Positions 1,299 to 64,000 of a stretch of DNA of 64,000 bases are shown one piece after another; the first letter of the stretch is position 1; each line of letters starts with the position of its first letter. The DNA lies in contig NC_079492.1 in the NCBI RefSeq assembly GCF_020520425.1, positions 113,123,157 through 113,187,156 of the forward strand. Reading direction: 5' to 3'. Source of the DNA: Spinacia oleracea (taxonomy: Eukaryota; Streptophyta; Magnoliopsida; Caryophyllales; Amaranthaceae). A program made the translations under genes and the position numbers. The notes beneath the pieces were generated by a model. It had not been told where the DNA came from, ran no database searches, and saw only the letters and a program-made list of their open reading frames with translations.

Positions 1299-9527
<8,229 letters not shown>

Positions 9528-26305: not shown

Positions 26306-26555
26306 TTTGGAAACTTTTAATCAGATTTAATTTGATGATGATGATGATGATGAAATTAAGCTTTTTATTTTTGGAGGGGAGTTTTGATAGATGTTGTGAA
26401 GGGAGGTGGAATGTGGTTATGACTTATGAATGGAGGTTCAAAGGTGGAGGCTTATTATATAAGAGGACCAACCTTATATTATAATACAATTTATTAATAA
26501 TAATATTGTATGATCTAACTGCTAGGCGTTAGCTATTTATAAATTATAATACATA

Positions 26556-41759: not shown

Positions 41760-42744
41760 TCATATGATCTCAACTGGACTGAACTTATTTTTTTTTTCTG
41801 ATCTGATCTGAATTTAATTATTCTAATCTGATATTATCTGATTTGATCTGATTAAATATGAAATAAGTAATAAAGTCCTGCAATAAGGTGAATTAAACAG
41901 ACCTTAGTGCTATTATTGAATACATGCAATTACAATCTTCACCTACCTACATCATTTTATGTCAATGTCATTCATGGTGATTTACACATTAAACAACTAA
42001 CAACGAATTTACTGAACACTTTATACAAACAACTAATCAAACAGTTAGTCAAACCAGATAATACAAATAATTACATTTAGCAACTAATCAAACCAGGTAA
42101 CCGCTAATTGTTAAACATGACCATATATACATGAGTAATATTTAAAAGTATTCTCTATTTTAAGTGACAACAGGCGGATAGATAGTCCGAAGTATAGGAA
42201 CAATGACTAGTAATGAGCGAATAAACTTAGCTCAACCAAGTCATGGCGTGCATGAACACTGCCCTAAAGTTGAACTTGTCTCCTTGCGTACACAAGGCCC
42301 TTGACAATCAATCTTCAAGGTTACACGACATATGTCTCGTTGTTATAGTACAAAAAGATAGATTGAAAACGAAATTGATCTTTGCCCAAAAACGAACCAG
42401 AGAAATAGTGTTTATAGAGAAAAAGGAGATTGATTATTTTCTGTGTGTATTCTGAGGAAGAAAGACTCACAGTATAAAAACAGGAAAAAGCTGACCAAAT
42501 AATTTTGGAAGAAAATTAAATCAGTAATCAATTAGTATCAATCAAAGACTAATTGCGGAATAAAATATGTAACCGTTATACACTAAATATCAAACTAGCC
42601 GTTACACATGACTGAGTCGTAGCAAAAAGGACTCACCCCCCACCCGCGCCACATGCCCGAGCCCGACCCTTGCGTGCATGCATGTGCGGTGGCTTAGAGC
42701 TTTCTCTCTTGTCTTCTAACAAACATACTTGCTGAAAGATAATA
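41760..42744. other. Spacer without recognised genes
   Basis: AT-rich, with TCTGATCTGAT remnants of the neighbouring array at its left edge. Nothing else can be supported. Confidence 0.35.
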
Positions 42745-42783
42745 CTTCCTCCGTTCCTAAATAGTTGCACCATTTTGACTTTT

Positions 42784-44179
42784 TGAAGGAAATAGTGCCC
42801 TTGGTCCAAGTATGCATATAATATTAAGTCTAATAAATGCGGTTCAGTATTAATTAACAAGTTAAAAATTCAGTGAGATCAAGTGAGCTGAATGCCTAGC
42901 TAGAGGCCGCTTCAGTTCAAGTGGAATTTAATGATATTAATCCACAACTTACTCTTGACTGAACCCGTAGGGTCACACAAATAGTACGTAAACGGATCAA
43001 GTATTTAATGGCATTAAATACTCCATCTATGGATATTCGGAATCGACGGATCTTGGTTTCAGTGGGAGCTGAGATCGTCACAGGCAAGAAATGAATACTC
43101 CGGAAACGATGATATTGCCGGAAACGGAAATATGGATCGTATCGGAAATATAAATATTATCCAAGTCGTAGATGTTTCCGGAAACGGAAACATGGTACGT
43201 ATCGGAAAATATTATCGGAAATGGAAATATTGCCGGAATCGGAAATATTGCCGGAAACGGAAATATTGTCAGAATCGGAAATATTATCGGAATCGGAAAA
43301 TAATTCCTGAAACGGAAATATTAAATATTTGTTCGAAACGGAAATTGATCCCGGAATCGGAAATATTAAATATTGTTCGTATCGGAAATGAATTCCGGAA
43401 CCGGGAATTTAATCGGAAGCGTATCGTACGAATAAACATCGGACGAGCTTGCTAGACGCAAGGCCTAGCACGAAGCTAGGCCCAACGCCTAGCACGAAGC
43501 TAGGCCCAACGCCTAGCAAAGCCCGCGCGCGACCAAAGCAAGCAAAGTCCAAACGTGAGAGCAAGGCCAGCAGGCGCGCGCCCCTCGTGGGCTGCGAGCA
43601 CTTGCTGGGCCTGGGCTCAGCGCGCGCGCATGGCGCCCCTCGTGGGCTGCTGCGGCTGCGTGTGTGTTTGTGCTTGCGTACGAAACCTTGATCGGTTAGG
43701 ATTCGTATAAGATTGATTTCCTAAGTCTACTAGATAAATTAAGTGATTGAATTTTAGATTAATTCAGATTCACTAAATCGTTTCCTAGTAGGATTCTAAT
43801 ATCCGATACCCATGCCCTATAAATAGGTGATCAATGCTCACAATTTACATCGAGTATTCAAGTATTCAAAGTGATTTTTGAGAGCAAAAATTCAGTCATA
43901 CAATTGCCTATATGTGCCGAAAATTCTAAGTACCTTAAGGGCGATCCTAGTTGGTCAAGCTTAAGGCGGATCCGGACGTGCTGTGGACTATCTACGGAGG
44001 GACGACACTTGGAGTCCTAAAGACTTGTTCTTGTTCGGTTCGGGCGCAACTAGGAAAGGCACGCAACAAAGTGTATGCATCTAAACTATGCTAAATGATT
44101 ATGTGTAAATAATATGCTTTCCTGGCTTTATGGTTTTTCCGCATGATTTATGAATTGTCATATGTATCATAACCTAACA
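42784..44179 (+). repeat. Left LTR
   Basis: TG...CA repeat of 1,396 bp. Positions 43090-43420 hold degenerate short repeats of CGGAAACGGAAATATT type. A GC-rich block follows (43440-43660) with a 24-bp unit (AGGCCTAGCACGAAGCTAGG-like) in one more copy than in the right LTR. A TATA-like CTATAAATAGG at about 43817 may mark the R start. Confidence 0.85.
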
Positions 44180-44929
44180 GTGGTATCACGAGCCTCTTAT
44201 TATTTTCATAATCTAAATTGCATGAACATGGTTAAATATTACAAATTTGCAAGAATTCAAAGGGGTGATTAATTTTCGTAATTGTTAATTAATTGCAAAT
44301 TGCGTTTATTTAATTATACGTACGCAGTTTTTCGGCAGTTTCTTCGTTACTCATCCAAATCGAGTGATTTTTATGTCAATTCCGCATGTAAAAGGCATTC
44401 TAAAATTTTGACAAAAAGAGTATTTTTCGGCCGAACCCAGAATTCTCAAATTCGAAGCCTAACTATGACTTTTCGGAGGTTTTAGTTTTTCGAATGCAAA
44501 ATTTCGTAAATTTAAGATGTTAAATTAAATATTTGCGATTCTTGTTGATAAATCTTGAATTTTTGATTGACCTATTGTATATGTTTAACAAGTTTGAATG
44601 CCTAGCCTTGTTAATTATGCAATCTAATTTGTAATTATGATTAACTTGTTGAAAATTGAAATAATTTAGAATTAATTTGATTTTCATAATTAGTTATAAT
44701 TTAATTAGATACCTATGATTAAAAACCACCATAAAAATTGTAAATTTATGTTAAGTTTTGAATTTTTATGACCTAGACTTGAATCCATGTTAATCGGAAA
44801 TCAATTGAATAATAAATTTTCGATTTTTCGCCCTAAAATTATGAAATTAATATTATTTATTAATTTGTCATTAATTTTGAATATAAATTTTAAATTTTTA
44901 TGCGATTTGCTCATATAACTTGCACGCAC

Positions 44930-45560
44930 AAAGCAATGGACGCTACGTGTTACCCTTAAGGGATGTTGTATAGTGCGGGCATGTGACGACGAGCAAGGGA
45001 GCTCGTCGCCCATGCGGTACGAATGCAATGAGCAAGGCCATGGTGCACGAGCACAAGGCAGCAGCCCTGCCTTGTGTCGTGGGCTGTGTGCGATGGGCGA
45101 ATGGGCGAGGGCGAGAGCAAGGCACGAGCAGTCGTGTGTGGGCAGCAAGCGAGCTGCGCCACAGCGCGCACTGCCTCGCGCAAGCGTGCGGAGCCTCGCG
45201 CGCAGCGAGCGCAAGCTCGCGTGCCACGAGTGCTACGCCCCAGCATCGATCGCTCGCGCGCAGCGAGCGCTATTGTGCGTGCGACAAGCGCTGCGCCCAG
45301 TGATGGCGTGCAGCGTGCTTGTTGAGACGAGCGCTGCGCCCAGCGATGGCAAGCAGCTTGCTTGTTGCGACGTGCGACGAGCGCTGCGCCCAGCGATGGG
45401 CTGCGGCAGCATGCTCGTGCGTCGAGCGCTGGCGCGCGCAGCGAGCACCAGCTCGCGTGAGGCCTTGCGATGGGGAGCAACAGCAATGCGACGCAGCGCA
45501 TGGGCTGTGCGCACATGGCCTGCGATGGCTGCGTTGCGTGGGGTTGTTGCGTTACGATTA
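44930..45560. repeat. GC-rich block with GCGCTGCGCCCAGCGATG repeats
   Basis: About 630 bp of GC-rich sequence inside the otherwise AT-rich internal region of the LTR element. The motif GAGCGCTGCGCCCAGCGATG and related GCGCAGCGAGC pieces recur several times. Long overlapping frames on both strands result from the composition and show no family signal. Confidence 0.75.
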
Positions 45561-48143
45561 GATCGTTTTAAAATTTTAATTTGAAATTTTCAGTTTTCGT
45601 AATTTTAATTAATTTTAAAATTAATAATTTAAATTATTTTCTTGGATTTTAATTTTGAATATTGTAATTATAATAAATTTTATTTATTCTAATTATTTTA
45701 CTAAAATTAAAATCATGAATTAATTTAAATACGACTGAAATTAAATTAAATTTTGGATTCAATTATAAATTTATATGAGCTTTAAATTTTAATTAAATTT
45801 GTATGTTTCTGGTTAGACTAGAAATACATTTTTATGTTTAAAATTAGTAAAGCATATGAATTTATTGGTTTAAGTGGGAGCTCTTTTTAGTCATATACTC
45901 TTGATTAGGTCTACAAATCCTTAAGGTTAAAACAACTTGATTAGAATTAATAAGGACTGAATAATTTGTAGATTATTGGTGCCCTTGATTAATTTCTGCA
46001 AATGTTTATGTGATGCATAATGTGTTTTACTAACCAGCTATGTGGGCCATTCATGTTAATGAATGGGTGAATGGTATATATTGTATATGTACTGTTTTGC
46101 AGGTTATGAAGTGACTAGTATGGCCTAAATAGGATAGAAAATATGGTCTGCGTACCATTAATTTGAATGTAATTGGTCTAAAGTACCAAAGTTGTTTTTC
46201 AATTCAAATATGGTATGCGTACCATCAAATAGTTGTAATTAGTTTTAATTATAGCTTATCCTATTTGAAGAAAATGGTGCCTCCCACGGAGATTTTCAAG
46301 ACGGACTTTGAAGTTAAAGCTTCAAGATGAAGTCGGGCCATACTAGATCACATTTATCTTATGCATGTTTTAAGTTATTTATTGCTTTTAAATATGTCTT
46401 AAAATGCATGAGATCAAAAGCTTGATTATGTTGCAAGATTAAGGATTTTAGTTCACTTAAAATCTAACCAACATAGTAAGAGCCTTAAGTTCCAAACTTA
46501 AAAATTGAGTTAAAAGGTGCCATGCCAAAATATACACTTGCTTGGATATCCTTTACATCAATCTAGTAATAGTTTTCGCTCAGCGAGGTGTTACTTATTG
46601 GTCCTAAAGGGGCAAGGCACACAAATAATTGTGAGTACATGTTAGTTTTGGTGAAACTCAACGATATAAGTAAGGAGTCCTTTTATGTCGTGGAAAAATC
46701 GATAGGTTTACCTAATAAGTTCTTAGACGTACCTATCAACCAAGAATAGTTTCTAGACTATTAGCAAAAGGCTTTTGCTTACCTAAGATGTTTTAAGATT
46801 AAGTCGACAAACTGTGCTTAATTCTTCAATGATTTTGGGGTCTTGGAATCATTTTATTCACACCTGCCGAAACAATAAATTCGAATAAAATGCTAATAAC
46901 TTGTTTGAATTGCATGATTGCTTTAATTTTCAAGTTATTATTCATGATAAATGTTTAGACTTTGCATGCTTCAATGAATGTTTTAATTATTATTTATAAT
47001 TAAATATCTTGCACTGCAATAAATCCTTTTAGAAAGGTAACAGTAAATTTCCTCGATTGGTAATGAATCCAAGAACGATTCACGGAAATGAGAGAAAATG
47101 AGCAATTTAAATGTACGTTTCTTTTAATGACTTTTATGGTTGTTTTCGAGTATCAAAATCGAATGGCAAACCGATTGGTGCTTGTGAATTCAAAATACAA
47201 GGTAGTTTTGAGATCATAAAGCATTGAGTTTAAACACTCAGCTTTACCAATGGTTAACAACCTAATATCTTTGTCCATTTAATTCTCGAATGAGTCTAGT
47301 CCCTAGACATTCGAATAGATCGATGCTTAGAGAACTTTAGAAGCTTCTGGTAAGATCATCTAGTTGAAACAGAATATTCAACATAAATTAAATGGTAAGA
47401 ACCCTGTTGGAGTGACATTGGACATGTCTAACAAAGTATAAAAGTCAACACTAAAGAATTCAATTCTTAAGACTATAAGAAAGGGTACAAGAAATAGGAA
47501 AACGAGGAACAAATGAAAGGAATTTACGATTCCGTTTCTACCTATAAGTTTATGTTTAAAGAGAAGTGACCTAGCAATCAAACTTCTTTGGTATCATATA
47601 CCGCTTGAGGTTCTTACTTCGGTAATAACTCAAAAAATGGAAGCTAGGCTACACTAATGACCTACAAGTGGGAAATGAAACATGGCAATGCTACATTAGT
47701 TGTAGGGTCATCTAGTTTGTTTTAAGTCCTTTCAAGGCTGGAACTTAATGGCTATTTTGTTCCATAATCAGCATACCTAAATTTCTGCTTCAAACACAGA
47801 AAGACTCACATTCAGAAGAACAAAAATAATGCTTGTTTGTTTGTTTATTTGAATAAAATGGTCATTTACGGGTTGAGTCAATATGCTTGATTAAAACAAA
47901 CAACTCTTTAAAGAACTTTACTAGGTTCAAATCAACCCCTTGATTTGAGTTCCACTAATCTTTGGCATTGTTGCTTAGACCATATCAATAAGTTAACATT
48001 CAAAAGCTCTATTTTGATGGACTTTTGAAAGTTCATTGATTTCTAAATCAATTTAAGAGCTTTCTCTCTTGTCTTCTAACAAACATACTTGCTGAAAGAT
48101 AATACTTCCTCCGTTCCTAAATAGTTGCACCATTTTGACTTTT

Positions 48144-49519
48144 TGAAGGAAATAGTGCCCTTGGTCCAAGTATGCATATAATATTAAGTCTAATAAATGC
48201 GGTTCAGTATTAATTAACAAGTTAATAATTCAGTGAGATCAAGTGAGCTGAATGCCTAGCTAGAGGCCGCTTCAGTTCAAGTGGAATTTAATGATATTAA
48301 TCCACAGCTTACTCTTGACTGAACCCGTAGGGTCACACAAATAGTACGTAAACGGATCAAGTATTTAATGGCATTAAATACTCCATCTATGGATATTCGG
48401 AATCGACGGATCTTGGTTTCAGTGGGAGCTGAGATCGTCACAGGCAAGAAATGAATACTCCGGAAACGATGATATTGCCGGAAACGGAAATATGGATCGT
48501 ATCGGAAATATAAATATTATCCAAGTCGTAGATGTTGCCGGAAACGGAAACATGGTACGTATCGGAAAATATTATCGGAAATGGAAATATTGCCGGAATC
48601 GGAAATATTGCCGGAAACGGAAATATTGTCAGAATCGGAAATATTATCGGAATCGGAAAATAATTCCGGAAACGGAAATATTAAATATTTGTTCGAAACG
48701 GAAATTGATTCCGGAATCGGAAATATTAAATATTGTTCGTATCGGAAATGAATTCCGGAACCGGGAATTTAATCGGAAGCGTATCGTACGAATAAACATC
48801 GGACGAGCTTGCTAGACGCAAGGCCTAGCACGAAGCTAGGCCCAACGCCTAGCAAAGCCCGCGCGCGACCAAAGCGAGCAAAGCCCAAACGCGAGAGCAA
48901 GGCCAGCAGGCGCGCGCCCCTCGTGGGCTGCGAGCACTTGCTGGGCCTGGGCTCAGCGCGCGCGCGCGCATGGCGCCCCTCGTGGGCTGCTGCGCCTGCG
49001 TGTGTGTTTGTGCTTGCGTACGAAACCTTGATCGGTTAGGATTCGTATAAGATTGATTTCCTAAGTCTACTAGATAAATTAAGTGATTGAATTTTAGATT
49101 AATTCAGAGTCACTAAATCGTTTCCTAGTAGGATTCTAATATCCGATACCCATGCCCTATAAATAGGTGATCAATGCTCACAATTTACATCGAGTATTCA
49201 AGTATTCAAAGTGATTTTTGAGAGCAAAAATTCAGTCATACAATTGCCTATATGTGCCGAAAATTCTAAGTACCTTAAGGGCGATCCTAGTTGGTCAAGC
49301 TTAAGGCGGATCCGGACGTGCTGTGGACTATCTACGGAGGGACGACACTTGGAGTCCTAAAGACTTGTTCTTATTCGTTTCGGGCGCAGCTAGGGAAGGC
49401 ACGCAACAAAGTGTATGCATCTAAACTATGCTAAATGATTATGTGTAAATAATATGCTTTCCTGGCTTTATGGTTTTTCCGCATGATTTATGAATTGTCA
49501 TATGTATCATAACTTAACA
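48144..49519 (+). repeat. Right LTR
   Basis: TG...CA repeat of 1,376 bp, about 98% like the left LTR. The 20-bp length difference comes from one missing 24-bp GC-rich unit and a 4-bp longer GC dinucleotide run. Confidence 0.85.
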
Positions 49520-50491: not shown

Positions 50492-50515
50492 GTAATAACA
50501 CTAATAATAATTACA
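49744..50515. repeat. Low-complexity spacer with microsatellites
   Basis: It contains TAC (49935-49951), TTA (50263-50283) and TAA (50457-50490) runs, plus TTCAGTTCAATT/TTTAGTTTAG-type degenerate repeats at 50130-50260. No gene is seen. Confidence 0.7.
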
Positions 50516-50733
50516 AACTTTTATATAAGACGGTTTTACACAAAAGACCATCTTGGTATAATATAAGTTAAGCAATGAAATCAATTAGTTAAACACTTAA
50601 ACTAATTAGTTAAGCACTGAAAACAATTAGTTAAGCAATAGTTAAGCAATGGAATCAACTAGTTAAGTAAAATGACCAATTAGTTAAGCAATCAAAGTGG
50701 TCTTTTTCGATAAAGCGGTCTTACACAAAAGTT
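50516..50733. mobile_element. Small inverted-repeat MITE with internal tandem repeats
   Basis: The left end ACTTTTATATAAGACGG and the inverted right end ACTTTTGTGTAAGACCG are similar over about 38 bp. Between them are about six degenerate 20-22-bp units of CAATTAGTTAAGCAATG type. The superfamily is not certain. Confidence 0.55.
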
Positions 50734-52661
50734 GCTCAATAATAATATATACTCAGCAAAAGGATAGAAGATGTACGTATACGTACAAATAGTCAAATAC
50801 AAGCATTAATTGTACGTTTTCGTTTAGAGAAAGGGTTGGGTCACTTAGACTTGCAAAATTAAGAGCATAATTAGCATACCGTACGTTTGGGACCACAAAT
50901 TTGTCATGTTTTCAACTTACATGCAAACTTATTTCTTCATATATGTTCCAGTTTGTGATGTATTCCGTACATTATTTCTCTGATTTCTGCATTTCATTTT
51001 ATGATATTGTCAGTCATTAACATTTATCATTACTAATTTTAGCTGTCATTAAATTTTAAGATCGATATAAAAACTACAAGGCGAGTAATAGATGATCAGT
51101 AAGGTCAATTATCTTCGCTAGCTTTAGCTCCATGCAATTTTCTCACAAAATATAATAATCATATTTAATTTGCATACAAGATTACAAGTTGTTTTTTTTA
51201 TATAACAGTGAACTAATAATTCAAGGAAATTAGAATGACATGTATAACAACAAATTAAGAGTACGCCATCTGACATCTAAGAAACACACAAAAATTAATT
51301 AAGAGCATTTACCATTGTTATACGTGTCATATAGTGAATTAGTTACACTTGCTCATGATCCACCAAGGTAATAAGGCGATAAGTGAATACATTTTCTTTC
51401 CGCATAATAAAAATCAAAACCTGCTGAATATTAGCAAATCGAGGAGACTAGCTTTAGATCAACTGTTGTCATACTAATAATATTGTTATTTGAAATAGTT
51501 GAAATTCAATAATATGTACAGTTGGTTAACATGAAAATGAGCATGAGTTGGACATTCATAAAAGGGAAAATTATGAAAAAAAACATAAAAACACAAACAA
51601 TGCAACTTCCTGGAAATTTCTTTTAAAAATCTCACTCTCACAAAACATATAGGAATGAGCCTAGTTAGCAGTGTCGGGTGCCCGCCCACCCACCCACCCA
51701 CGTTATGTCTTATGTGGACCGTACCTTGATGTGAGAAGATCGATTTACTTCTTGTAACGTGGACAACCAAATACGGAGTATTGTTTTACGCTTTTTGAAA
51801 TTGTCATTTCAATTTCATAATGGTTGAAGGCCTCTTTTTCACCCCTGTGATAAACGTTCGATTCTCACCCCTTATGGGGAGTCCATACACATAAAATAAT
51901 TTTAAGCTGACTGGACATAAAATGCAATCAGTTAACGACATGTCAGCATGTACATTTTGGTTTTAGGTGGGAAATGGTATATTTTAGGAGGGAAAGGTTT
52001 TCATTTTTTCCGCCAGTTTGCTCTTCCAAGCGGGTATTTCAGCGCCCCAAAATCCTGCGAAAATTTCCCCGCCTAAATTTCCCCAAAAAAAAAAAAAAAA
52101 AAAAAACAAACCAAAGTGAAGGTGAACATTAACTATCCACAGAAGGATATCACTTACCAGGCTTGTTGTAAGAGGTGAATATTCATGAACTCCATTTTTA
52201 CTTCTCATTTAATACAAAGCAATAATTAAGTAATGTTTTAACTTTGTTATCTACAATTTTGTTCTCGTTTTATGTATTTTCATAGTAAATTTTATTCTCG
52301 AATATAATCCTTATTAATGTATTGTTATTTTATCATTGTCGTAAAATCTATGAACCATTCATTAATCAAGCGGAGTAACCAATGTTGTTGGTTGAAGTTG
52401 ACGGAGAAACCTATGTACCTTGTGTGTTTAATCATTTATTTTCGGGGATAACTTATGTATGTTAACCTTTTTAATTTAATTTACGGTATATGTATAATTA
52501 AAAACATAATGCTAATATATTATTTGAATTAATTATTTGTTTATTTGAATTAATTTTAAAAAATGGCCATACCTATTTATTTGTATAAAAGCATTGTATG
52601 ATTTATTTTAATTTGTATTAAAAAATTACTTGGTTGATTTCATTTTTTATTTCAGAGTACA
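50734..52661 (+). promoter_or_regulatory. Spacer and upstream region of the FAR1/MULE gene
   Basis: No coding gene is seen in 50734-52000. A tRNA-like B box (GTTCGATTCTC) near 51870 may be a SINE fragment. A homopolymer A tract lies at 52086-52106. A TTTCAG acceptor sits 6 bp before the ATG at 52662, so the 5' UTR is probably spliced. The leader exon was not identified. Confidence 0.35.
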
Positions 52662-55560
52662 ATGGTTAGTATAGACCTTAATGTTGAACCTTTCATCGGA
52701 GAAGGAACTATTGTGAATTCAACTACTCCAACCACCCCTTGTCCAGGAATGTGTTTTGAGTCCGGTCGTGAGTTTTTTGAATTTTGCAATCGTTATGCGT
52801 ACATGACTGGTTTTGAGTTGTTTGTAATATGTAGTAAGATTAAGAAGGAGTACAAGGATAAGGGTGTTAGTAAAGTTGGTATTGGTGAGCTTGAGGCTAG
52901 GCCCCATACGATGGAGATGATCAGATTAAAGTGTAAGAAAGGTGGCGTGAAATCTAGTGTCGGGTCTAATGTTACTGGTTGCAACGTTTTTTTTTATGGT
53001 AAAGAGAAAAACGGAGAGTTTGTAGTTATTAGTTGTGATTTGGCGCATAATCATCCCCTATTGCCCGAAAATAGTAGGATGATGGTTAACTATAGAAGCA
53101 TCGATAGTGCTACCTTTGATAGGGTAATGATAAATGAACGTGCCGGTGTTAGCGTTAGTAGAAACTTTGGCACGCAATTGATAGAAAAGGGTGGTTTTGA
53201 TAATATGACGTTCAACAAAAAAGATTTGAGGAACGCCATAGCTGTTGAACGTCGTAAAACCATGTTTGAGAAAGGGGATGCTGTTGCACTTGAAGAGTAT
53301 TTTAAAGCACAACGAGATCTGAATGTCGATTTCTATAGTTCTATAGAACGAGATGAAGAGGGTATTTTAAAGAACGCATTCTGGTCCGACGCGCGTAGTA
53401 GAGGAAGTTGCAAATATTTCGGGGATGTGATCAGTTTCGACACCACCTTTTCTAGCAACAGGTATGTTATTTTACTATTTAGTTCTTTCAATTACATTAC
53501 TGTGGTTGTTAGTTATTTGGGTTATTTGGGAAAGTGTTATTGAAATTGAAGTAATTGTGCATGTGGTAATTGATATTATTGTGATGTTATTTTTTATGAC
53601 ACTCCTAATAATAGTGTAAATGCATAGGTTTTTTTCTATGGTACGTTTACCGTGTGTATGCTTGTCATAAATGCGATATAATTGATAATTAGTTTTTATT
53701 CCCATTTCATAATGATTTTTAATTAAGTTAATATATGTGCATGCATGCGAAAATAATTTACTTGATATGGTTATTCCATCGTACTTTACACAATACTAAT
53801 TACTGAATTTACCAGGTATCGTATGCCATTTGCCCCGTTTGTTGGCGTCAACCACCATGGGAGGTCAATTGTTTTTGCTGGCGCTTTAATATCACACGAA
53901 GACACTCCGAGTTTTGTTTGGGTCTTTGAGGAATGGCTTAAGTGCATGGGAAAGCCTCCTGAGGGAATTATAACCGATCAGGACAAGGCAATAGGTAGAG
54001 CGATAAGCATACTTTTCCCCGGGGTTCCTCACAGGCTTTGTTTGTGGCACATGCTACAAAATGCCTCTCGCAATCTCGGCAAGCTCGATGAATGGAAAAG
54101 CATCGACACGCTGATTAGAACCGCCGTTCATGACATGCTCGATCCCGATGAGTTTGATGAGGCTTGGTGTCTTGTGATGGACAAATATAATCAACGTAAG
54201 GGTTGGATGCTGGATGCGTATGATAAACGTCAGCAATGGGCACCAGCTTACAATAGAGGTAAATTTTGGGCTGGAATGTCCTCTACGCAACGAAGTGAAG
54301 GTATGAATCGCACATTCAAAATTCATGTAAACTTAGATTGTGGATTAACGCAGTTTATTAAAAACTACGAGTTTTGTATGAAGATAAAGGCAGAGGAAGA
54401 GTCGAAGGATAATCTTGATAGTATAGATAAGCCTCCTAGACTTGATGTGGACAAGAGTGTGTTAGCTGAGTATGTGTTGCATAAGGTATACACCAATGAG
54501 ATGTTTGATGTGGTTGTGAATGAGCGGAAAGGTTTAACCCACACGAACGTAACCAAAACCAATGCACTAGGGTCACTTGTATTTTATAGAGCTGATGAGA
54601 AACTGACCTCCCCTCATTGGAGGAAAAGGTTCAAAAGTTACGTTGTTAAAGTAGATAAGGTAAAGGGGGAACTGAGTTGCTCATGTCAGTTGTTTGAATT
54701 TAGGGGTATTTTATGTAGGCACATACTCAAAGCAATGGATGTGGAGGATTTCCAATTTATACCGGAGAAATATATACTAGATAGATGGACGAAGAAAGTT
54801 AGGTCGTATGAGAGTGTTAGGGTTTCATACTATGATCCTGAAGAAACCGCAATGTTAGCCAAAGCTAAAGAGCTTTCCCAAAGGCATAACTATTTGAAAG
54901 AATTAGCCATGCGCAATGAAGCTGCGTACAAGTTATATACAGAAGGCACTGATAGTCTTAGGCTGAAAATGGAGGATGCAGTCGGTATTAGAAAGACTGG
55001 TGAAGGAGGTGATCAGTCTATTTGTTGGTGGGATCCCGAAGCACGTAACGTATTTGGTCATCGTAGGCTACGACCGAGGGAGTGTAATGAACGTGCCCTA
55101 AAGAGGGCATCTCAACCTGCTGAGGATGGTGCCATTAAAACCCCCATTGATAAGAGGCATGTTGGGCGGTCTAAGAAAGGACCGTATTCAATCTACGACA
55201 AATCAAAGAAGAACCAAGCATGTAATCACGCTGAGATTGCAGCGAACGAGGTAATGTTACATTTGTTGATTTTTGTTATTTGAAAGTCATATTTTGTTTA
55301 TTATGAATTATTATTTAATCAAGGTACGGTAATTGTAGGAACTCATAAGGTCTACTTATGGCCATATTCCTAGCTACCGGGCTAGGCAAGAGCATGCGAA
55401 GAACGTTCATGATGCACGTTTACATTCCTCATTTAATGGACCTGTTTTAGAAGACATTCCCGAATCTTTTCAAATAAATTTGTCCGAAGATATATCCCAA
55501 ACTTTTGATTATGATACCTTTGAATGGCACAGAAGTCTCGGAGGTCGAGGGACCTTGTAG
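52662..55560 (+). CDS. FAR1-related / MULE-type transposase, 818 residues
   Basis: Member of the FAR1/FHY3/FRS group, which is either a Mutator-like transposase or a domesticated transcription factor. Exons 52662-53461, 53816-55250 and 55339-55560 join in frame (AG/G, then phase 0) to 818 residues with no stop. Order: FAR1 DNA-binding region (about 30-130, with the C...C...H.H pattern ending DLAHNHPL), MULE transposase core and SWIM zinc finger (about 550-570, CSC...CRH). Catalytic candidates are Asp260 in FDTTF, Asp321 in TDQDK and Glu428 in TQRSEGMN; the C..H motif LCLWH is present. FAPFVGVNHHG is the usual FAR1 signature. The intron position and intact frame suggest a functional protein. 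An Ulp1-like gene faces it from the right, as in Kaonashi-type MULEs, which favours the transposon reading over a domesticated regulator. Confidence 0.88.
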
Positions 55561-55641
55561 TTGTTTGTATATATTTTATAATTAATTGGGTTCTGTATTA
55601 TCTGTATATAAAGTTTTGTTAGATTATTGTATGAAAAATAA

Positions 55642-56400
55642 TTAGTCATATTAAATTCTATTCTATATTTTTAACATTTCATAAACTTAAAACGTTGAAC
55701 TGAATTGGTCCTCATAAGAATGTGGAAAAATCACCCAAAAAAAAAAGTGTGGGTTAGGGGGTTGGTTGGTAGGGAAATATGCATATTCCCGCTGCTAGCA
55801 GGGCTCGAACCTCAGACCAAAGGGGAAGCAAAGCTCTATGTTAAGGCAGTAACCATTGTGACGTGAGGCCGAAGCCATTGCCTCATTTGCGTCAAAAATA
55901 TAGTAATACTGCTCTATGTGCTGAATAAAATAATTATAATGCCCTCGTTAATTTCATTTCGTGGACACTCATACAATGCTTAATTGGTAATATATTTACA
56001 TATTCATTCATTAAAATAAATTAGTCCTATTACATTCTATTCTTTATTTTTAACTTTTTATAAACTTAAAACGTTGAACTGAACTGGTCTTCATAAGAAC
56101 GTGGAAAAATTTCCCAAAAAAAAAAGTGGGGGTTAGGGGGGTTGTTGGTAGGGAAATATGCATAATCCCGCTGCTAGCAGGGCTCGAACCTCAGACCAAA
56201 GGAGAAGCAAAGCTCTATGTTAAGGCAGTAACCATTGTGACGTGAGGCCGAAGCCATTGCCTCATTTGCGTCAAAAATATAGTAATAATGCTCTATGTGC
56301 TGAATAAAATAATTATAATACCCTCGTTAATTTCATTTCGTGGAAACTCATACAATGCTTAATTGGTAATATATTTACATATTCATTCATTAAAATAAAT
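55642..56400. repeat. 379-bp direct tandem duplication containing a SINE-like piece
   Basis: Two copies with period 379 bp (55642 and 56021) are almost identical. Each contains, on the minus strand, a B-box-like GGTTCGAGCCCTGCTAGC and a T/A-rich tail, suggesting that a tRNA-derived SINE was copied along with its flanks. It lies between the transposase gene and the RecA-like gene. Confidence 0.85.
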
Positions 56401-56658
56401 TAAATTAAATTTTAAAAATTGGAATATTTTTACATTTATTTTGTTCATACTGTTGTTGAAAATAATGGTGTCTTTTTTTGCGGTATATTGTTAGAAAATT
56501 GCAAATAGTTGAAATAATAGTTATAGTTTCTGTGTACGTTCTATGGGTGTGAGTGAAATAATTAATCTTCTTGTTGACATCCAAGTTTAGTAACGCACAA
56601 CCCAACCTGTATATATAGTAATGGTTGTGTAGTCTAAAATTAACTTAAATAAATAAAA

Positions 56659-57201
56659 GGAAATTTTGTTATTTACTACCTTAAAAATACACCACTTTTG
56701 TATTTACTACCTTATGAAATTTTTATTTTAAATTACTACCTTAAACTTTCAATTTTTTATTATTTACTACCACTTTACAATTTTCTCATTTTAAAATTAA
56801 GATATCTCTTTGGTTTCTTAATCCTTTAATGTGATTCAAAGTTCATTATCCTCCTTGCTCTATAGGGATTTCATTGAGAACGACATTTCAAAAAAATTCG
56901 TTTGATAATTCATATATATTTTAAACTTTTATGTATAATATTTAATTCGTTTTACCTTTTGTAAAATTTTAAAAGCAAGATCTCAATGGAATCCTTACAC
57001 ATAAATGAGAAGAATGGGATTTGAATCACTTAAAATGATTAAGAAACGAAAGAGATATCTCAATTTTAAAATGAGAAAACTGTAAAGTGGTAATAAATAA
57101 AAATAAATTGGAACTTTAAGGTAGTAATTTAAAATAAAATTTTCATAAGGTAGTAAATACAAAAGTGGTGTATTTTCAAGGTAGTAAATACCAAAAAATC
57201 C
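56659..57201. mobile_element. Mutator-type foldback MITE with 9-bp TSD
   Basis: A 543-bp element with long inverted arms carrying TATTTACTACCTTA/ATACACCACTTTTGTATTTA blocks. It is flanked by direct repeats of TAAATAAAA (56650-56658 and 57202-57210). The 9-bp length fits Mutator elements. The last base of the right duplication is the A of the ATG of the RecA-like gene, so the element lies right at its start. Confidence 0.82.
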
Positions 57202-57209
57202 TAAATAAA

Positions 57210-58007
57210 ATGTCAGCAAATTCACAAAAAATTACAACCAGGTGCCATGCTATTGATACTATTTTGCAAGGTGGAATAAGTGTTGGTGAAGTGACTGAAT
57301 TATGCGGGGATAATACGACAGGTAAAACACAACTTTGCCTTCAAACTAGTATTGCATGTCAGTTACTCCCTTCATTGGGTGGAATGTTCGGGGCAACCAT
57401 TTATATACACTCAATTGGACCATTTCCAATTCGTAGGTTGACATCTTTAATACCCTTCATTTTAGAAACCTCTCTTGATGTCAATGACAAACCCTGTGAT
57501 CATATAACAACCAAACAGGTTGAATCACCATATGAGTTACCTGACGTACTTGATTGGGTTGTAAAGTTGGTTAAACAGTCGCACAACACGTGCAGGCATG
57601 TGAGGTTAGTTGTTATCGATTCAATTGCAAGTATTTGTACTAGCCATTTCGAGAACACGGCGGTAGGGTTAGAGTCACGGACACAGTTGCTACGTGCTAT
57701 TGGATATGGTTTGAAGTCCATTGCATCCAAATACAACCTTGCCGTCCTAGTGGTCAATAATGTTGTTGATGTTTTTCCAAGTGATTCCGATTCTTCTACG
57801 CATTTCATGATGTCATCTGGAAGGAAGGTTCGCCCAGCTTTGGGTAATGTATGGACTCGGGATATAGGAACGAGGTTATTCTTATCCAAATCAATTAATC
57901 CCTCAGACCAAACTTGTGGCAGATTGTTAAGTGTCCTATTATCATCTACGCTTGAGTTAGATGTTTGTAGATTTAAAATTACCGAGAAGGGCGTTGTTGA
58001 TGCATGA
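57210..58007 (+). CDS. XRCC3/RAD51-paralogue-like RecA-fold ATPase, intronless
   Basis: RAD51 paralogues such as XRCC3 bind ATP and help RAD51 in homologous recombination in the nucleus. This 265-residue single-exon frame follows XRCC3 order. TGCEILD-like opening: TRCHAIDTILQGGISVGEVTEL. Walker A: GDNTTGKT (33-40, Lys39), followed by QLCLQ. Then IYIHSIGPFPIRRL, CDH, and Walker B RLVVIDSIAS (Asp137 after a hydrophobic strand). SSGRKVRPALGNVW and a C-terminal FKITEKGVVDA match the XRCC3 tail. Length is slightly below plant XRCC3 (about 300 residues), with a short N-terminus. Cellular plant XRCC3 genes have introns, so an intronless copy points to a retrocopy or transposon capture. The start is the first ATG of the conserved frame. 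It converges with the Ulp1-like gene, 285 bp between stops. Confidence 0.82.
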   Translation: MSANSQKITTRCHAIDTILQGGISVGEVTELCGDNTTGKTQLCLQTSIACQLLPSLGGMFGATIYIHSIGPFPIRRLTSLIPFILETSLDVNDKPCDHITTKQVESPYELPDVLDWVVKLVKQSHNTCRHVRLVVIDSIASICTSHFENTAVGLESRTQLLRAIGYGLKSIASKYNLAVLVVNNVVDVFPSDSDSSTHFMMSSGRKVRPALGNVWTRDIGTRLFLSKSINPSDQTCGRLLSVLLSSTLELDVCRFKITEKGVVDA

Positions 58008-58292
58008 ATTATATTACTTCACAGATGTTCAAAATCGGAAAATCCATATGGAGTGTTGTCTGTTTAAAATAGCTAAATCCCGAATGATCAACATGGGATT
58101 AGTACCACTTGCCATCGTGATAATATTCTAAATAAGGTCACATTTTCCTGTTTGAACAATAAATGTAGGACTTCATTCTCATAAATCCATAAACGAGTGG
58201 TTTTTTAAGCCATACGAATACTAATTACAATCCTTACATCATACGCCTCCACACACAATTCCCGGCAGATTAGATGTTTTGTTAATAGTGAT

Positions 58293-61200
58293 TCAACACG
58301 TTTTGCTTGAGAGTAATTTCAGGACGTCATTGGATTTCATGTCGTTATGATGGCTTCCCACTAAACGGCCAAGAAGGAAGTTCCTGATACCATTGTTGTT
58401 GTCCCTATAAGTCTGCAATTCAAACGAACTTGCTGTGACATTGTGTTGTGTTTGGAAATTGAGAAAGGAAAACCAATTAAGTAATTACCTCCATAATTTC
58501 TGTTACATTCTCCCGAACAGACAACAAATGCAGCATGCACAACAAACCACGATCGGGAACATTTCCAGCTATCGGATTGTTCATAATGTGCACTTTGTAA
58601 TCCGAATAATCAAAAAATGACCAAACGTCGTTCAGCGTGCGTTGATCTGGAACTTGACCAATAATGTTGGCCTGTTTTAAAGCACAACATATTTCAAGAC
58701 GGAGTGTCTACAAATCGGTGGGTTATATGAACAACCTAAAAAACAAAAACACGTACAGTCTTTGGGGCTAGTAACTCGCTGAAGGTAAGTGATGTATGTG
58801 GCTTTCTCCGAGGATCGAAAACCTTTATCACTTCTTCTCCACCAGATAAAGTAATGACCATCCGATCGCCATTGTCACATAAGGGAATATACAACTGCGT
58901 TACAAAGTCCATAATTGTATTAGTTTCGGTGAAGGATTAAAGGACGTAGTTTACACAGAAATTTAAGATTGTACCTTGTTGACATCCTTTAGAACAAAGT
59001 CCCTGTCAAAGTCTTGTTTAATCTCCGTAACCTTCTTCTCCACCAACTCCGTATACTCGTTTGAATTCATATCTGTAAGAAATATATCATCCTACACACA
59101 ATTGTTTACAGTTATTCTTATTATATCCGTTTGTGCCTAATGTTTGTGCGAAAGTGTCCTACATTTAACTTACCAATAGTGTTGGGTGGATAACGTATGC
59201 AGTTATTGCAGGGTTCTCTGTGATGTCCTTGTTCAAACAAGCACACCAAGCATCCATAATCTACAAGTGTATACTGCGATTATTAAGATTGAGAAAACTA
59301 AATTTGGTGTTCCATACACGTCTTATAAGGTGAAAACTTGTCACGCATACCTTATGATTTATTTCTCCTGATTTTTTAAATGACGCGTACAGCAAACCAC
59401 GAGATAGTGTGTGTTTACCGAACTTGAATAGAACTTGGTCGGAGTTCTTGTTTTGTGCCAGTATGATGTCCGCAATCTTTGTATGCTTAGAATGAACAAT
59501 GGCATTTGGTTTTTCCAACTCCCTGTTGTGGATGTCATCATCGGATTCAGTTTCATCATCCTCCTCATTGGTATTTGTCTTGTGTACAGACTTCTCCTTC
59601 GCATTCTTGGTTGCACCCTTTTTCTTTTTACGCGGCCTTCTACTTTTCACTGCATCCTATAATTGAATGGTACTTTGAAAATGTTATCCATGTCGTTATT
59701 GAATGATGACAAACGATATAGAAGTGTTTGTAACAATAATAGGCATAGACGAACCTCTTTGGTACTTGCTTCTTTTTGGGGAATTCTGTGCGGCCGTAGG
59801 TTAACCTTCTGCACATCCGGAAAAATGATGGGTTCACCAACAATACCTTTTCCTCGAAGATCACTCCATGGTGGTTTCGAAGCTGTTTTGGCAATCGGGT
59901 ACTCTTTACCATACACAATATCACGAACGACCTGCTCGAGAGTGTGAAGACATTGCACTATTAGCACATTGTCCATTGTATCCATATTACAATTTGGAAG
60001 AATTGAGAGATGTGGTAGTTTTTAGTAAAGTACCTCAGCTTTGCCGAATTCGCCGTTGGATCCCTTGTCAAGCGCAATGACCAAGTCCATGTCCTCGGTG
60101 GTCCAAGCACTTATGCGGGGCTTTTCTTTGCACCATAGCTTTCCTGTTTTTTGGGACTTAATTCGATCGAGATATGCAATCTATACAACGAAAAATGAAT
60201 TAATAACATAAAACATTTGTAAACAACATAAAAACCCACTGTTCACTCACCAATAACACAAAGGCAGATGGTTTTCCCGGCTCCTTACCACGACCTGTCA
60301 TCCATTCATAAACAAACCCACACCCATTCGGACGGGTTGGACACGTAGTCTTTCTTCAATAATGGTAGTAGCTTCGGTGTAATGAAGTTGTATTTGTTCA
60401 TACAAAATAGACTACCCATAGTCAATAGTATGAAATGCCTTAAAAACCAAAACCTGTCGGTCTCAATACTACATTTGTTGTAAACATGAGTGTAATCAAT
60501 TCCACTGCGAGTGTTGTACGCAGTTTCTAATTCTTCAACTTCATCGTTTCCTAACGTCATTGACTCGAAGTCTTGGTCAACAAAGGGTATGCTAGTAATC
60601 CAAGATATCATTTCCTCATCAATTGCGATTTCGTAGTCATCCCTTACTACTAGTACTTGTCTCTTCCAGTCCCACCTCTTCTCTAACCAAGTCATAAAGT
60701 GTCTATCCACTTTGTTTACCTTAAGTTCTAGAATCAAACTAAAACCCGCACTCTCAACCCAGTCTCTTCGTACTGGACACATTGCGTTCACTGCGTCTAT
60801 TACTAATTGAGAGTAAACCCTTAATGAAGTATGCTGTACCGGTAAAAGATTAAGGAGAGAAATTAAATTACAGACAAGCAAGGAATTATGGAAATTTTTA
60901 AAAACTAGTACCAATTTTATATACCGGTTTAGCCGCTTTGCTTTCACCCTTGCCGAGGGGCGGACGTCCTGGCCCTCCGGGAACCCATTTTCCAAGAGGC
61001 TTCGGACGCGTCAGTCGTTGGAACTCTGTAATAGGTGGCCTCCCTCTCTTACGCCTAGGTGGAGTACTGTCTTTGGCACTTTGTTCGGTCTCTTGTTGTG
61101 GCGTGGGTTGTGTTGTGGTGTTCATATTATTTATGAGTGTGTACAACGTCGTTCTACATTAAACAAATGGGCGTACAAACTATTATTATAAAGCAAAGTT

Positions 61201-62090
61201 ATGATAGGAAACCTATTTAGTAAGAACTTAGTACCAAATTTTATACTAACACATTTTGCTAGTCGTACCTCATAATCTGAAAAATTGAGAACGGGGCTTT
61301 GTTCACCTTTGCTAATGTTTTCCCAAATATTATCCTATTTTAACACGCACCATTGTAACCATTTCTTAGTTAATTAATTTCACATAAATCCTGGCTGTAT
61401 TAAACAAGATAAAACTATGGAAACATAAGTACTTTAGCTACATATTCATTGATCGTGGTTAACTTATTTCACCACTGTAAATTGAGTAGTACATTACCTG
61501 AGACACTCGTCTTGAATGATGGGTATATCCTCCGTCTCACTCTGTACATTTCCCTGCTGATGTACGGCCTACAAACAAATTGTTGATGGCAACAATTAAT
61601 AAGTAAATAACTGAATGAACTGAAAACCGGATTTGGGATCTTAACAAATAGGAAGTACAATAAAGCGGGTTATAAGAGAGATTTACTTTGGGGGAAACAG
61701 ACGAACCGGCTACAACCTCGTCGACAGGGCCGCCGTCGCCGTCGACGGGCGGTGTGCTTCCGGTATGTATTGGGTTGTTGGATCGGGCCATTTCTCGCAC
61801 GTCCTCGTTTTCCTCGGAAACATCGCCGACGTGTTGAGTTGTTGTCGGAGCTGTTTCAACCGTGGTAGGCTGATTAATATCTGCCCCAAGTGCGTACTCG
61901 GCAGCAATGGCGGCTACTTCCCCAAAATCATCTGCAGCAGGGTCGTCCCTAAATTGGGGGGAAGAAAAAATTGAAGCTCTTAACACATACAATTGACATG
62001 CAAATCAGAATTATTTCCGAAATAAACTCATTTAATTACTCTATAGAACATCAATCGTGAATAGACAAACAACATATTAGTCACTTACAT
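58293..62090 (-). CDS. Ulp1-like (C48 fold) transposon-type protein with AT-hook; frameshifted
   Basis: Plant Ulp1-like protein of the type carried by Kaonashi MULEs; true Ulp1 proteases cut SUMO. Exons (high to low): ...62090-62089, 61948-61687, 61568-61498, 61153-60925, 60833-60251, 60180-60034, 59931-59755, 59656-59351, 59260-59174, 59091-58975, 58894-58757, 58671-58489, 58412-58293. The phases match throughout, giving about 806 residues, except that exon 60833-60251 is 583 nt. An extra G in the run at 60323-60325 breaks the frame between NPSEW and CGFVYEWM. Features: acidic N-terminus, AT-hook RKRGRPP, a RVYSQLVIDAVNAMCPV...DWVE domain common in these proteins, a Lys-rich KKKKG stretch, and a C-terminal Ulp1-like part. 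In the last part the expected His lies in CDNGDRMVITL (no His) and the expected DCG reads PDRGLL (Arg for Cys), while FDPR keeps the Asp. It is probably inactive as a protease. The start codon appears split by the first intron. Confidence 0.72.
60323..60325 (-). other. Likely single-base frameshift in the Ulp1-like gene
   Basis: The exon has phase-0 borders on both sides but is 583 nt long. Family-like sequence before this point (KDYVSNPSEW) and after it (CGFVYEWMTGRGKEPGKPSA) is in different frames, one G too many apart. It is either a true mutation or an assembly error. Confidence 0.6.
61038..61064 (-). other. AT-hook coding segment
   Basis: The encoded PPRRKRGRPPI contains the GRP core with flanking Arg/Lys, a minor-groove AT-hook. 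It is in the N-terminal third of the Ulp1-like protein and suggests DNA contact. Confidence 0.65.
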
Positions 62091-62491
62091 GATCTTCCCA
62101 AACCGATGGTGTCGTCGGCTTCTGGTGAGTGTTTGGGTGTTTAACTGAAACCCGCGAATTGTGTTGAGTAAGAAATGATATTAATTCAAATAAAGGTAAT
62201 TTGTTTGTGAAAATGAAAACAAACCAAATAAAACAAAATGGTCAAACAATGCAATGATGTCGTCCGACATGTAGGTGAGTAGGTGTAAGCTTTTTCATTT
62301 TTCATAGTAACTTATGCTGGAAAAAAAAGGAAATTGTCTACACCCCTTTTAAATTAATAATAAATAATTTGTTACTTATGTAACAACTAAATCAAATAAA
62401 GAGACATTAATAACGTATGTTGGTTATCACGTTTAAAATATTTAAACGACATTCCGTTTAATTTGTAATTATTTTTTCAGTTATGACTCGT
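62091..62491 (-). promoter_or_regulatory. 5' leader and upstream region of the Ulp1-like gene
   Basis: On the minus strand the leader exon ends at 62089 with ATCAT/GTAAGTG. The same frame has no ATG before a stop at about 62187. The rest is AT-rich without other features. Confidence 0.4.
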
Positions 62492-63486
62492 GTTTAGACT
62501 TTCCCCCTTAGGTTGATTGACGAACATCGATTCTTCAAGACGGGGTGAAAGTGAATTAAGGAATTGGACGTTAAATGTGATATGAAGGCATATTGACTAG
62601 ACTTGCCCCCTAGGTTGATTGACGAACATCGATTCTTCAAGACGGGGTGAAAGTGAATTAAGGAATTGGACGTTAAATGTGATATGAAGGCATATTGTTT
62701 AGACTTGCCCCCTTAGGTTGATTGACGAACATCGATTCTTCAAGACGGGGTGAAAGTGAATTAAGGAATTGGACGTTAAATGTGATATGAAGGCATATTG
62801 ACTAGACTTGCCCCCCTAGGGCGATTGACGAACATCGATTCTTCAAGACGGGGTGAAAGTGAATTAAGGAATTGGACGTTAAATGTGATATGAAGGCATA
62901 TTGACTAGACTTGCCCCCTAGGGCGATACACGAACAACGATTCCTTAAGACGGGGTGAAAGTGAATTAAGTAATTGCACGTTTAATGGGATATGAAGGCA
63001 TATTGACTAGAGTTGCCCCCCTAGGGCGATTCACAAACAACGATTCCTTAAGACGGGGTGAAAGTGAATTAAGGAATGGGACGTTAAATGTGATATGAAG
63101 GCATATTGACTAGACTTGCCCCTAGGGGGATTCACGAACAACGATTCCTTAAGACGGGGTGAAAGTGAATTAAGTAATTGGACGTTTAATGTGATATGAA
63201 GGCATATTGACTAGACTTGCCCCCCTAGGGCGATTGACGAACATCGATTCTTCAAGACGGGGTGAAAGTGAATTAAGGAATTGGACGTTAAATGTGATAT
63301 GAAGGCATATTGACTAGACTTGCCCCCTAGGGCGATTCACGAACAACGATTCCTTAAGACGGGGTGAAAGTGAATTAAGTAATTGGACGTTTAATGTGAC
63401 ATGAAGGAATATTGACTAGACTTGCCCCCCTAGGGCGATTGACGAACATCGATTCTTCAAGACGGGGTGAAAGTGAATTAAGGATA
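62492..63486. repeat. Minisatellite, about ten copies of a 101-103-bp unit
   Basis: Tandem units carry TAGACTTGCCCCC, GACGAACATCGATTC, AAGACGGGGTGAAAGTGAAT, GGACGTTAAATGTGATATGA and AGGCATATTGAC in fixed order. Two unit variants occur (GACGAACATCGATTCTTC and CACGAACAACGATTCCTT), in the order A A A A B B B A B A. The array starts about 400 bp upstream of the Ulp1-like gene. Tandem repeats near element ends are known in some Mutator-like elements. Confidence 0.93.
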
Positions 63487-64000
63487 TGGAGATTTCACGG
63501 AATACGAAGGACGACTTGATTGCATAATTACTAAAATAATTACATATGAATACGTAACGAGAAGTATTAATTTTCATACACGCTAAATTAAATAAAAGTA
63601 TACTTTAATTAAAGACACATACAAACTATTATATTAAATTATATATCTGGTGCAAAGTGGACCCGGTCAATCATTACAAGCACATGTATTGGGTTGTTTG
63701 CTTATTGGCTGCAACATCAACTATCTGTATTGGCGGGAAAACACATTTCGTCTATAATAAATATGCATACCATATAAAAATGCGAATTTTCCCCCTATTG
63801 ACTTACGTAATGTGATATGTTTTATTTCGTACAAACAGTTATTTAATTGTTTATACCAAAAAATTAAAGAATCACATTGTAAATAAACAGTGGCTGTTCC
63901 CGCCATTTTAAGCATCATCCACTCTTCTATACCTCACGGCTGTGTAAGATTAGTGGTATATAAAGAACAAGGTTGTAGTAGTAGCCATATTCAAACAAGC
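63487..64000. other. Right-edge spacer
   Basis: AT-rich, no coding frame of note. A TATA-box-like TATATAAAG at 63957 on the plus strand may belong to a gene or element starting beyond the window. No terminal inverted repeat matching the left side (51.8-52.6 kb) could be found. Confidence 0.3.

Follow-up and report, generated by a model that had tools for sequence, protein, structure and literature searches.

Mutator-like elements (MULEs) possess long terminal inverted repeats (TIRs), or none in the case of non-TIR MULEs, and the Kaonashi (KI) elements among them have a MuDR-like transposase of the VANDAL/KI group. According to the parts of the cited papers available for this comparison, KI elements bear a Ulp1-like gene in the orientation opposite to that of the transposase (PMC2528002, PMC13317346), some VANDALs carry Ulp1-bearing VANC genes with an anti-silencing function (PMC13317346), and VANC binds tandem repeats that turn over rapidly (PMC5735166, PMC10398659). 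The subject of the present analysis is a 64,000-nucleotide stretch of plant DNA from spinach (G000:C6:113123157-113187156), referred to here as the window, which was searched against its own genome assembly (894 Mb, 242 contigs). The unit found in its right portion is one copy of a family of 18-25 kb Mutator-like DNA transposons, transposed as a whole and bounded by 9-bp target-site duplications. As predicted from sequence, the regular gene set of this family is a transposase, a RAD51 paralogue nearest XRCC3 and two divergently oriented Ulp1/VANC-like genes that flank a tandem array.

Kaonashi (KI/KIU) elements and the ULP1-carrying VANDALs of Arabidopsis have a transposase and, as one of three genes, an opposing Ulp1-like gene (PMC13317346, PMC2528002), a pairing that the spinach element seems to share; it also resembles VANDAL in the tandem repeats of its noncoding parts (PMC5735166). 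Unlike KI and VANDAL, it has a FAR1/Jittery-like transposase (on weak matches), no C48 match and short, imperfect inverted ends. It further differs in bearing an XRCC3-like gene and two VANC-like genes instead of one, with NAC genes added in some copies. The Jittery-like and MuDR-like ULP1-carrying MULEs of grapevine and melon likewise combine a Jittery-like transposase with a downstream ULP-like gene in either orientation, but more genes are present here, and the available part of the source mentions no RAD51 paralogue for those elements (PMC2528002). Host-gene sequence within a MULE is also the mark of a Pack-MULE; Pack-MULEs, however, are described in the accessible text as having lost the transposase and carrying gene fragments (PMC6446971), whereas a complete gene, under selection, accompanies a transposase here.

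The element is classified from its predicted genes as a MULE. Membership in Kaonashi, with which the preliminary description had compared it, is not claimed because no profile matches the Ulp1-like gene, that gene is frame-broken in the window and the transposase is weakly FAR1/Jittery-like. The same description knew of no MULE with a RAD51 paralogue, and none was found in the open-access literature by title and abstract, with earlier notice elsewhere possible. The available text of a VANDAL/Ulp1 review (PMC13317346) does not mention RAD51, and a Brassica MS5 paper that came up for XRCC3 and MULE was set aside as unrelated, concerning in its available part a MULE insertion allele.

Borders of the element

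The complete element of the window copy spans window-equivalent positions 51877-76783 (G000:C6:113175033-113199939; 24907 bp). The three genes originally noted are the left part of this one mobile element, which reaches 12.8 kb beyond the window with additional genes and has about half of its length outside; an end inside the window (51900..63500), as first drawn, had to be abandoned. Within the 29.3 kb examined, the sequence CCCCTTATG has just two occurrences, 24.9 kb apart: one begins at 51868 and the other at x=19575, equivalent to window position 76784. Exact 9-bp target-site duplications were found at four copies (the window copy, c4_69.06, c1_92.14 and C2:108.95), giving the shared outer borders that the preliminary description had anticipated, and 9 bp falls inside the 8-11 bp given for MULEs in the accessible text of PMC6446971. 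Two of the four duplications sit at right borders set independently by alignment. More specifically, the right-flank alignment of c1_92.14 and C2:108.95 stops at x=14157 and x=13820, respectively, and their left flanks, TACTGAAAA and CTTTTCAAC, recur at exactly those points. In c4_69.06 an 18.3-kb element lies between copies of ATAGCAATG. Right ends were also examined in c2_32.65 (interrupted) and c5_53.24 (to x=15400), neither of which gave a usable one.

The left terminus GGGAGTCC, compared in copies other than c4_113.47, is common to seven copies; three others read GGGAG(A/C)TG, and the first bases of c2_32.65 deviate from the shared terminus. The right end of the window copy, ...GTGTGGGTTTGGCG, adjoins the right duplication and resembles other right ends (TTTGCG, TTTCCG). 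The inverted ends are imperfect and about 40-50 bp in length, with local scores, each set against the maximum of 300 shuffles, of 48 versus 33 in the window copy, 36 versus 28 in c4_69.06 and a marginal 28 versus 26 in c1_92.14.

Several other candidates were rejected. Ends inside the window (left in 50500-52660, right in 62150-63950) were discarded: exact 9-bp pairs numbered 59, where 50 letter shuffles averaged 32.7, but the best inverted-end score was 10/20 (shuffled mean 9.9, maximum 13) and no pair was outstanding. The true right end is beyond the window. A 13-bp repeat at x=12926 of c4_69.06 was dropped as a duplication because three other copies run on past it, and a 10-bp match in c2_32.65 because the local sequence is unlike c4_69.06.

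Gene order, copies and gene content

Ten further copies of 16.9 kb each, picked by their ATPase, were read beside the window. The gene order in all 11 is transposase (+), ATPase (+), Ulp1/VANC-like gene (-), tandem array and fourth gene (+), and it holds over ATPase identities of 56-100%. Across the genome the ATPase search gave 68 rows at E <= 1e-3, merged to 57 loci that include fragments and the likely host gene; 35 rows are near full length (at least 240 of 265 residues covered), 31 of them without an internal stop, and identities cluster near 86-89, 80-81, 74-78, 66 and 56%. Searching with exon 2 of the transposase yielded at least 91 rows and, after merging, at least 89 loci, a lower bound with 89 of 1745 first-look candidates scored. 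Among the transposase matches listed, a same-strand transposase lies 0.8-2.0 kb upstream of 46 of the 57 ATPase loci, including all 35 near-full-length rows, a feature that sets the family apart from Pack-MULEs. The 11 loci without one are nine fragments or much diverged sequences, C3:91971570 (78%, two stops, broken) and C4:148009937. The proposal that a Mutator-type unit carries the ATPase as cargo, together with a transposase and an opposing gene, is borne out by the constant order and by these 46 loci.

In reciprocal view, and again among the matches listed, an ATPase is found within 8 kb at 46 of 67 transposase loci of at least 67% identity, at 0 of 5 loci of 54-66% and at 0 of 17 of 50-53%. 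The last group, several members of which score equally, is a sister family without an ATPase match (e.g. C2:11142236-11143588); a far-diverged ATPase there could escape the genome search. Transposase/Ulp1 pairs without the ATPase had been named beforehand as evidence that would speak against a cargo. The sister family does lack the ATPase, but L051, its sole locus read (5.9 kb downstream of exon 2), shows no significant Ulp-like match either, and its downstream gene is presumably germin-like. The ATPase thus far looks like a gain of a single transposase lineage, as far as sequence comparison can indicate.

In six copies the ATPase shares 86-89% identity with that of the window, and their transposase exon 2 shares 95-97%. 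For exon 2 of the Ulp-like gene the identity is 81-82% in five of those six and 96% in c1_108.06; parts seem to have been exchanged between elements with the order unchanged. The sequence of the tandem duplication at 55635-56402 is found as well between the ATPase and the Ulp-like gene of c1_108.06 (x=974-1585; 95.6% over 614 bp). Ten copies of the subfamily at 56% ATPase identity have an equal ATPase score (C1:92142377, C2:108948242 and others), which suggests a recent burst. Even so, the left ends of these two named copies are only 70% alike over 796 bp, against 98% for their right parts.

The three transposase exons splice into 818 codons with no stop and match the Pfam domains MULE (2.5e-28) and SWIM (9e-8), while FAR1 (0.036) is weak and under cut-off. 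The D, D and E motifs are found in all 11 copies, c6_123.29 having a stop inside the third. In representatives of four subfamilies the FAR1 DNA-binding domain gave weak, near-full-length matches in every case (E 0.003-0.044, under the curated cut-off), DUF5575_N scored equal to or better than FAR1 in three, and no MuDR-type DNA-binding match was obtained with Pfam. The transposase is, on these matches, weakly FAR1/Jittery-like; of the FAR1/MULE gene first described, the intact MULE part stands and the FAR1 part is weak.

The opposing gene is real and lies in reverse orientation to the transposase in all 11 copies, but its Ulp1 name finds no relevant Pfam or PDB match, C48 included, in searches with individual sequences and with a profile built from six rows. 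Its parts are taken here to be an AT-hook-like exon, a PMD/DUF1985-like exon and a degenerate Ulp-like C-terminus with a Trp/Asp/DCG-like pattern, names that stand without a Pfam match. No His precedes the Trp in any of the 11 copies, and a Cys is found at the DCG place in four (three DCG, one GCG), with DSG, DRG, DQG or DGG in the rest; if it has a Ulp fold, the protein is probably not a protease. Similarity to SENP1 was rejected as support for the Ulp1 name: the local score was reached by 49 of 1000 shuffles, with the aligned stretch outside the catalytic core, and the end-to-end score by 169 of 500. The window gene has a frame break near 60322, through which the other ten copies read. Of the 13 exons first proposed, ten were modelled; two upstream pieces are also present, 61947-61687 in six and 62270-62235 in five of the ten other copies, and a gene start near 62280 is plausible because both are conserved in the close group.

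The minisatellite beyond this gene is also real, with a unit nearer 103 than the 101 bp first given. It occupies the equivalent place in all 11 copies, and its consensus units, compared by eye, are alike within close groups and different between them. The fourth gene follows it: one upstream exon is present in 11 of 11 copies, with 63-75% identity to c4_69.06 and 100% in the close relative of that copy, c2_32.65. Because an exon of this gene bears a distant resemblance (22-30%) to exon 2 of the opposing gene, the two genes appear to be relatives placed back to back around the array. A CGFF-type exon with a coiled coil and hydrophobic tail comes next in all five copies read past x=10.6 kb; its reading as a GRF zinc finger is weak, since of two copies scanned one gave a match, at E 0.15. 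NAC genes are present in three of these five far-reaching copies (NAM 6e-33 in c4_69.06; 2e-28 in the window element, where there are two NAC matches); two of the five have an F-box exon. No NAC gene was found in the complete element c1_92.14 or in c2_32.65, whose likeness to c4_69.06 ends at x=10718, probably at an insertion. The three genes of the unit as first described are real, but as a whole that unit was too small.

NAC transcription-factor genes thus lie inside a MULE, in the right half of the window element (L042) and in c4_69.06. Amaranthus palmeri is in the same plant family as spinach. Its glyphosate-resistance EPSPS cassette contains NAC, Ulp1 and plant-mobile-domain genes, according to the accessible part of PMC5240378. 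They might conceivably be vestiges of an element of this kind.

The ATPase, its selection and its possible role

The description of an intact, intronless XRCC3-like ATPase was upheld, with a Pfam Rad51 match of 9e-28. Its closest solved relatives are XRCC3 structures (6.7e-30, 4e-21), with human RAD51B near (2.6e-20). Like plant XRCC3, it has a RecA-type core, and Walker A (GxxxxGKT) and Walker B ((V/L)VIDS) are kept in all 11 element rows. Unlike plant XRCC3, it is multicopy and mobile, is 33-36% identical to the likely host gene, and has lost two residues: in every one of the 11 copies Ile or Leu stands in place of the Glu of the TE(D/F) motif, and NNV in place of NQV, whereas the likely host, human and Alvinella XRCC3 all retain Glu and Gln. 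In the RecA/RAD51 mechanism this Glu is catalytic and this Gln is the gamma-phosphate switch. Because both are replaced, ATP binding with little hydrolysis is predicted. According to the title of PMC5470734, Arabidopsis XRCC3 forms a complex with RAD51C and RAD51.

The likely host gene is the XRCC3-like sequence L052 (C4:148009850-148010700; locus C4:148009937), a single open frame across 851 nt with no introns and with XRCC3 as its best solved relative. Its first Met lies about 17 residues ahead of the aligned core and the frame is open further upstream, leaving the start uncertain; among the transposase matches listed, none lies within 8 kb upstream. An origin of the ATPase as the retrocopy of an intron-bearing gene was rejected, and retrotransposition is unnecessary because L052 is itself without introns over these 851 nt. 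A tree of nine rows, RAD51B being represented by one, groups its five element proteins in a single clade (100/99) with a long stem of 2.05. The tree suggests an old capture, its source not proven. No relative was found among the viral contigs searched. Loss of an N-terminal domain through the foldback beside the gene was rejected, as the start is at or very near this position in foldback-free copies too, and stops lie a short way upstream of it. A single-sequence structure model (mean pLDDT 36.7) was not used. The foldback finishes 7 bp ahead of the ATPase ATG, and the distance from transposase exon 2 to the ATPase is at most 1.2 kb in 34 of the 35 near-full-length rows, the window copy being the exception at 1.96 kb. 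It is probably an insertion into the window copy, and could alter expression of the ATPase there.

The Nei-Gojobori ratio of nonsynonymous to synonymous divergence (dN/dS), calculated for the 55 pairs of the 11 copies, is 0.10-0.24 for all pairs with dS >= 0.3, the highest dS values being close to saturation. By this measure purifying selection has maintained the ATPase sequence during diversification of the element.

DNA transposons are thought to depend on the host for break repair, and how Mutator gains copies without visible excision is an old question. The explanation that accounts best for the data, and that appears reasonably probable as a whole, is a mobile family whose conserved XRCC3-like gene would aid templated gap repair and whose Ulp/VANC-like pair would counter silencing. 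The transposase would cut and join the element. The ATPase, predicted to bind ATP and hardly hydrolyse it, would join host RAD51/RAD51C at the excision gap in the role of an adaptor or cap, and repair from the sister copy would be favoured, such that a large element is copied back instead of lost. The Ulp/VANC-like proteins may bind the fast-evolving array and relieve silencing by the host, the role that VANC has in VANDAL; an array of constant position whose units differ between groups is comparable to the tandem-repeat targets of VANC (PMC5735166, PMC10398659, as available). A broader proposal is offered tentatively, as a possibility: that in one eukaryotic cut-and-paste transposon lineage a RAD51 paralogue has become standing machinery, with a long-kept, ATP-locked XRCC3 derivative steering gap repair to copying from the sister chromatid, so that a 25-kb element multiplies and is not lost, and with VANB perhaps a diverged member of the same class.

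Several points weigh against the favoured explanation. The element clade joins the likely host XRCC3-like sequence with weak support (74/69), and assignment to XRCC3 over RAD51B is weak (78.6 bits for human XRCC3, 76.1 for human RAD51B). The roles assigned to Glu and Gln depend on the general RecA/RAD51 mechanism, and the VANC analogy on domain patterns with no profile match behind them. Young pairs have dN/dS of 0.15-0.90, based on few changes, and a low ratio over long branches is silent on which function is selected. Among the matches listed, 21 of the 67 close transposase loci (at least 67% identity) show no ATPase within 8 kb; in the search rows ten are partial, seven are longer with stops and four are full length and stop-free, namely C1:64628913, C1:90617340, C6:110128740 and C5:32168034, and the ATPase may thus be non-essential. 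All data come from one genome.

Help in templated repair is favoured over both interference with host repair and an anti-silencing role. Under the former alternative, which is rather doubtful, the ATPase would be a dominant-negative RAD51 paralogue that blocks homologous repair by the host, so that ends are joined or integrated otherwise, or that disturbs a RAD51-dependent defence. Every one of the 11 copies lacks the catalytic Glu and the switch Gln yet retains both Walker motifs, which an ATP-locked protein of this kind would display. An XRCC3-like ancestry equally fits an assistant, however, and an element that blocked repair of its own gaps would lose copies.

The alternative in which the ATPase is a partner of the Ulp/VANC-like proteins in anti-silencing or target recognition at the array, the counterpart of VANB by position, is unlikely. 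The gene order of VANDAL21 is A-B-C, and the ATPase sits between the transposase and the VANC-like gene. VANDAL21 encodes VANA, VANB and VANC (PMC5735166, PMC10398659), its VANB gene is At2g23490 (PMC10398659), and VANB has no assigned function in the accessible text of PMC6446971. Against such a partnership, VANC alone is enough for hypomethylation according to the available part of PMC5735166, and the type of transposase seems different from that of VANDAL.

Slightly less likely again is a captured host gene without function for the element, a passenger as in Pack-MULEs. Capture of host sequence by MULEs is frequent (PMC13317346, PMC2528002, available parts), the element also bears NAC and F-box genes that are absent from some copies, and the 21 close transposase loci without an ATPase point the same way. 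The presence of the ATPase in all 11 copies is no evidence against a passenger because the copies were chosen by it. Purifying selection across subfamilies (the dN/dS range given above) nevertheless largely refutes this alternative, and the presence of the gene in subfamilies just 56% identical also speaks against it; the NAC genes, in contrast, are found in only some of the far-reaching copies. A chance neighbourhood in which a MULE and a Ulp-like gene happen to lie beside an ordinary XRCC3 retrocopy, to which the intronless ATPase gene and the lack of convincing inverted ends in the window alone could have pointed, deserves practically no credence: with a transposase 0.8-2.0 kb from the ATPase at most loci and a target-site duplication around the whole unit, chance is excluded because dozens of copies share the order.

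With a conserved RAD51 paralogue of its own in a transposon, the question of Mutator copy gain would become directly testable. The predicted protein would also provide a naturally evolved, apparently hydrolysis-dead RAD51 paralogue for study, and genes of the element could be miscounted in annotation as multicopy host XRCC3.

Mapped features and neighbouring sequences

Table 1. Features of the element mapped in the window (window coordinates)
Feature	Position	Strand	Description
Left 9-bp target-site duplication	51868..51876	.	CCCCTTATG; exact match at both ends
In-window portion of element	51877..64000	.	whole element 51877-76783
Left terminus	51877..51924	+	begins GGGAGTCC; short imperfect inverted repeat, 51887-51924 pairs with right end
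MULE transposase	exons 52662-53461, 53816-55250, 55339-55560	+	818 aa; DDE acidic residues and SWIM finger
379-bp tandem duplication	55635..56402	+	in tandem only in the window copy, among 11 scanned
Foldback like a miniature inverted-repeat transposable element (MITE)	56658..57202	.	545 bp; 236-nt arms, 86% complementary; AAATAAA on both sides
Intronless XRCC3-like RAD51 paralogue	57210..58007	+	265 aa, one exon
Ulp1/VANC-like gene	58293..61125	-	10 phase-0 exons; hand-built model based on splice sites
Two upstream exon pieces of Ulp1/VANC-like gene	61687..62270	-	conserved in close group of copies
Tandem array	62495..63489	+	unit about 103 bp, 9.7 copies; between divergent gene pair

Elsewhere in the window, long direct repeats at about 42700-49300 lie 5.34-5.36 kb apart and are 96-99% identical where compared; they look like the long terminal repeats of a young retrotransposon of that type. 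A gene for a CHX-type cation/H+ exchanger is located at 19147-21444 (Na_H_Exchanger 1.4e-21, with CHX17 domains). On the minus strand, a PAS-type fragment reminiscent of phototropin lies at 8823-9527 (E 0.0015, under cut-off), and a PADRE-domain gene (1.8e-34) with an internal 39-bp repeat at 25670-26320.

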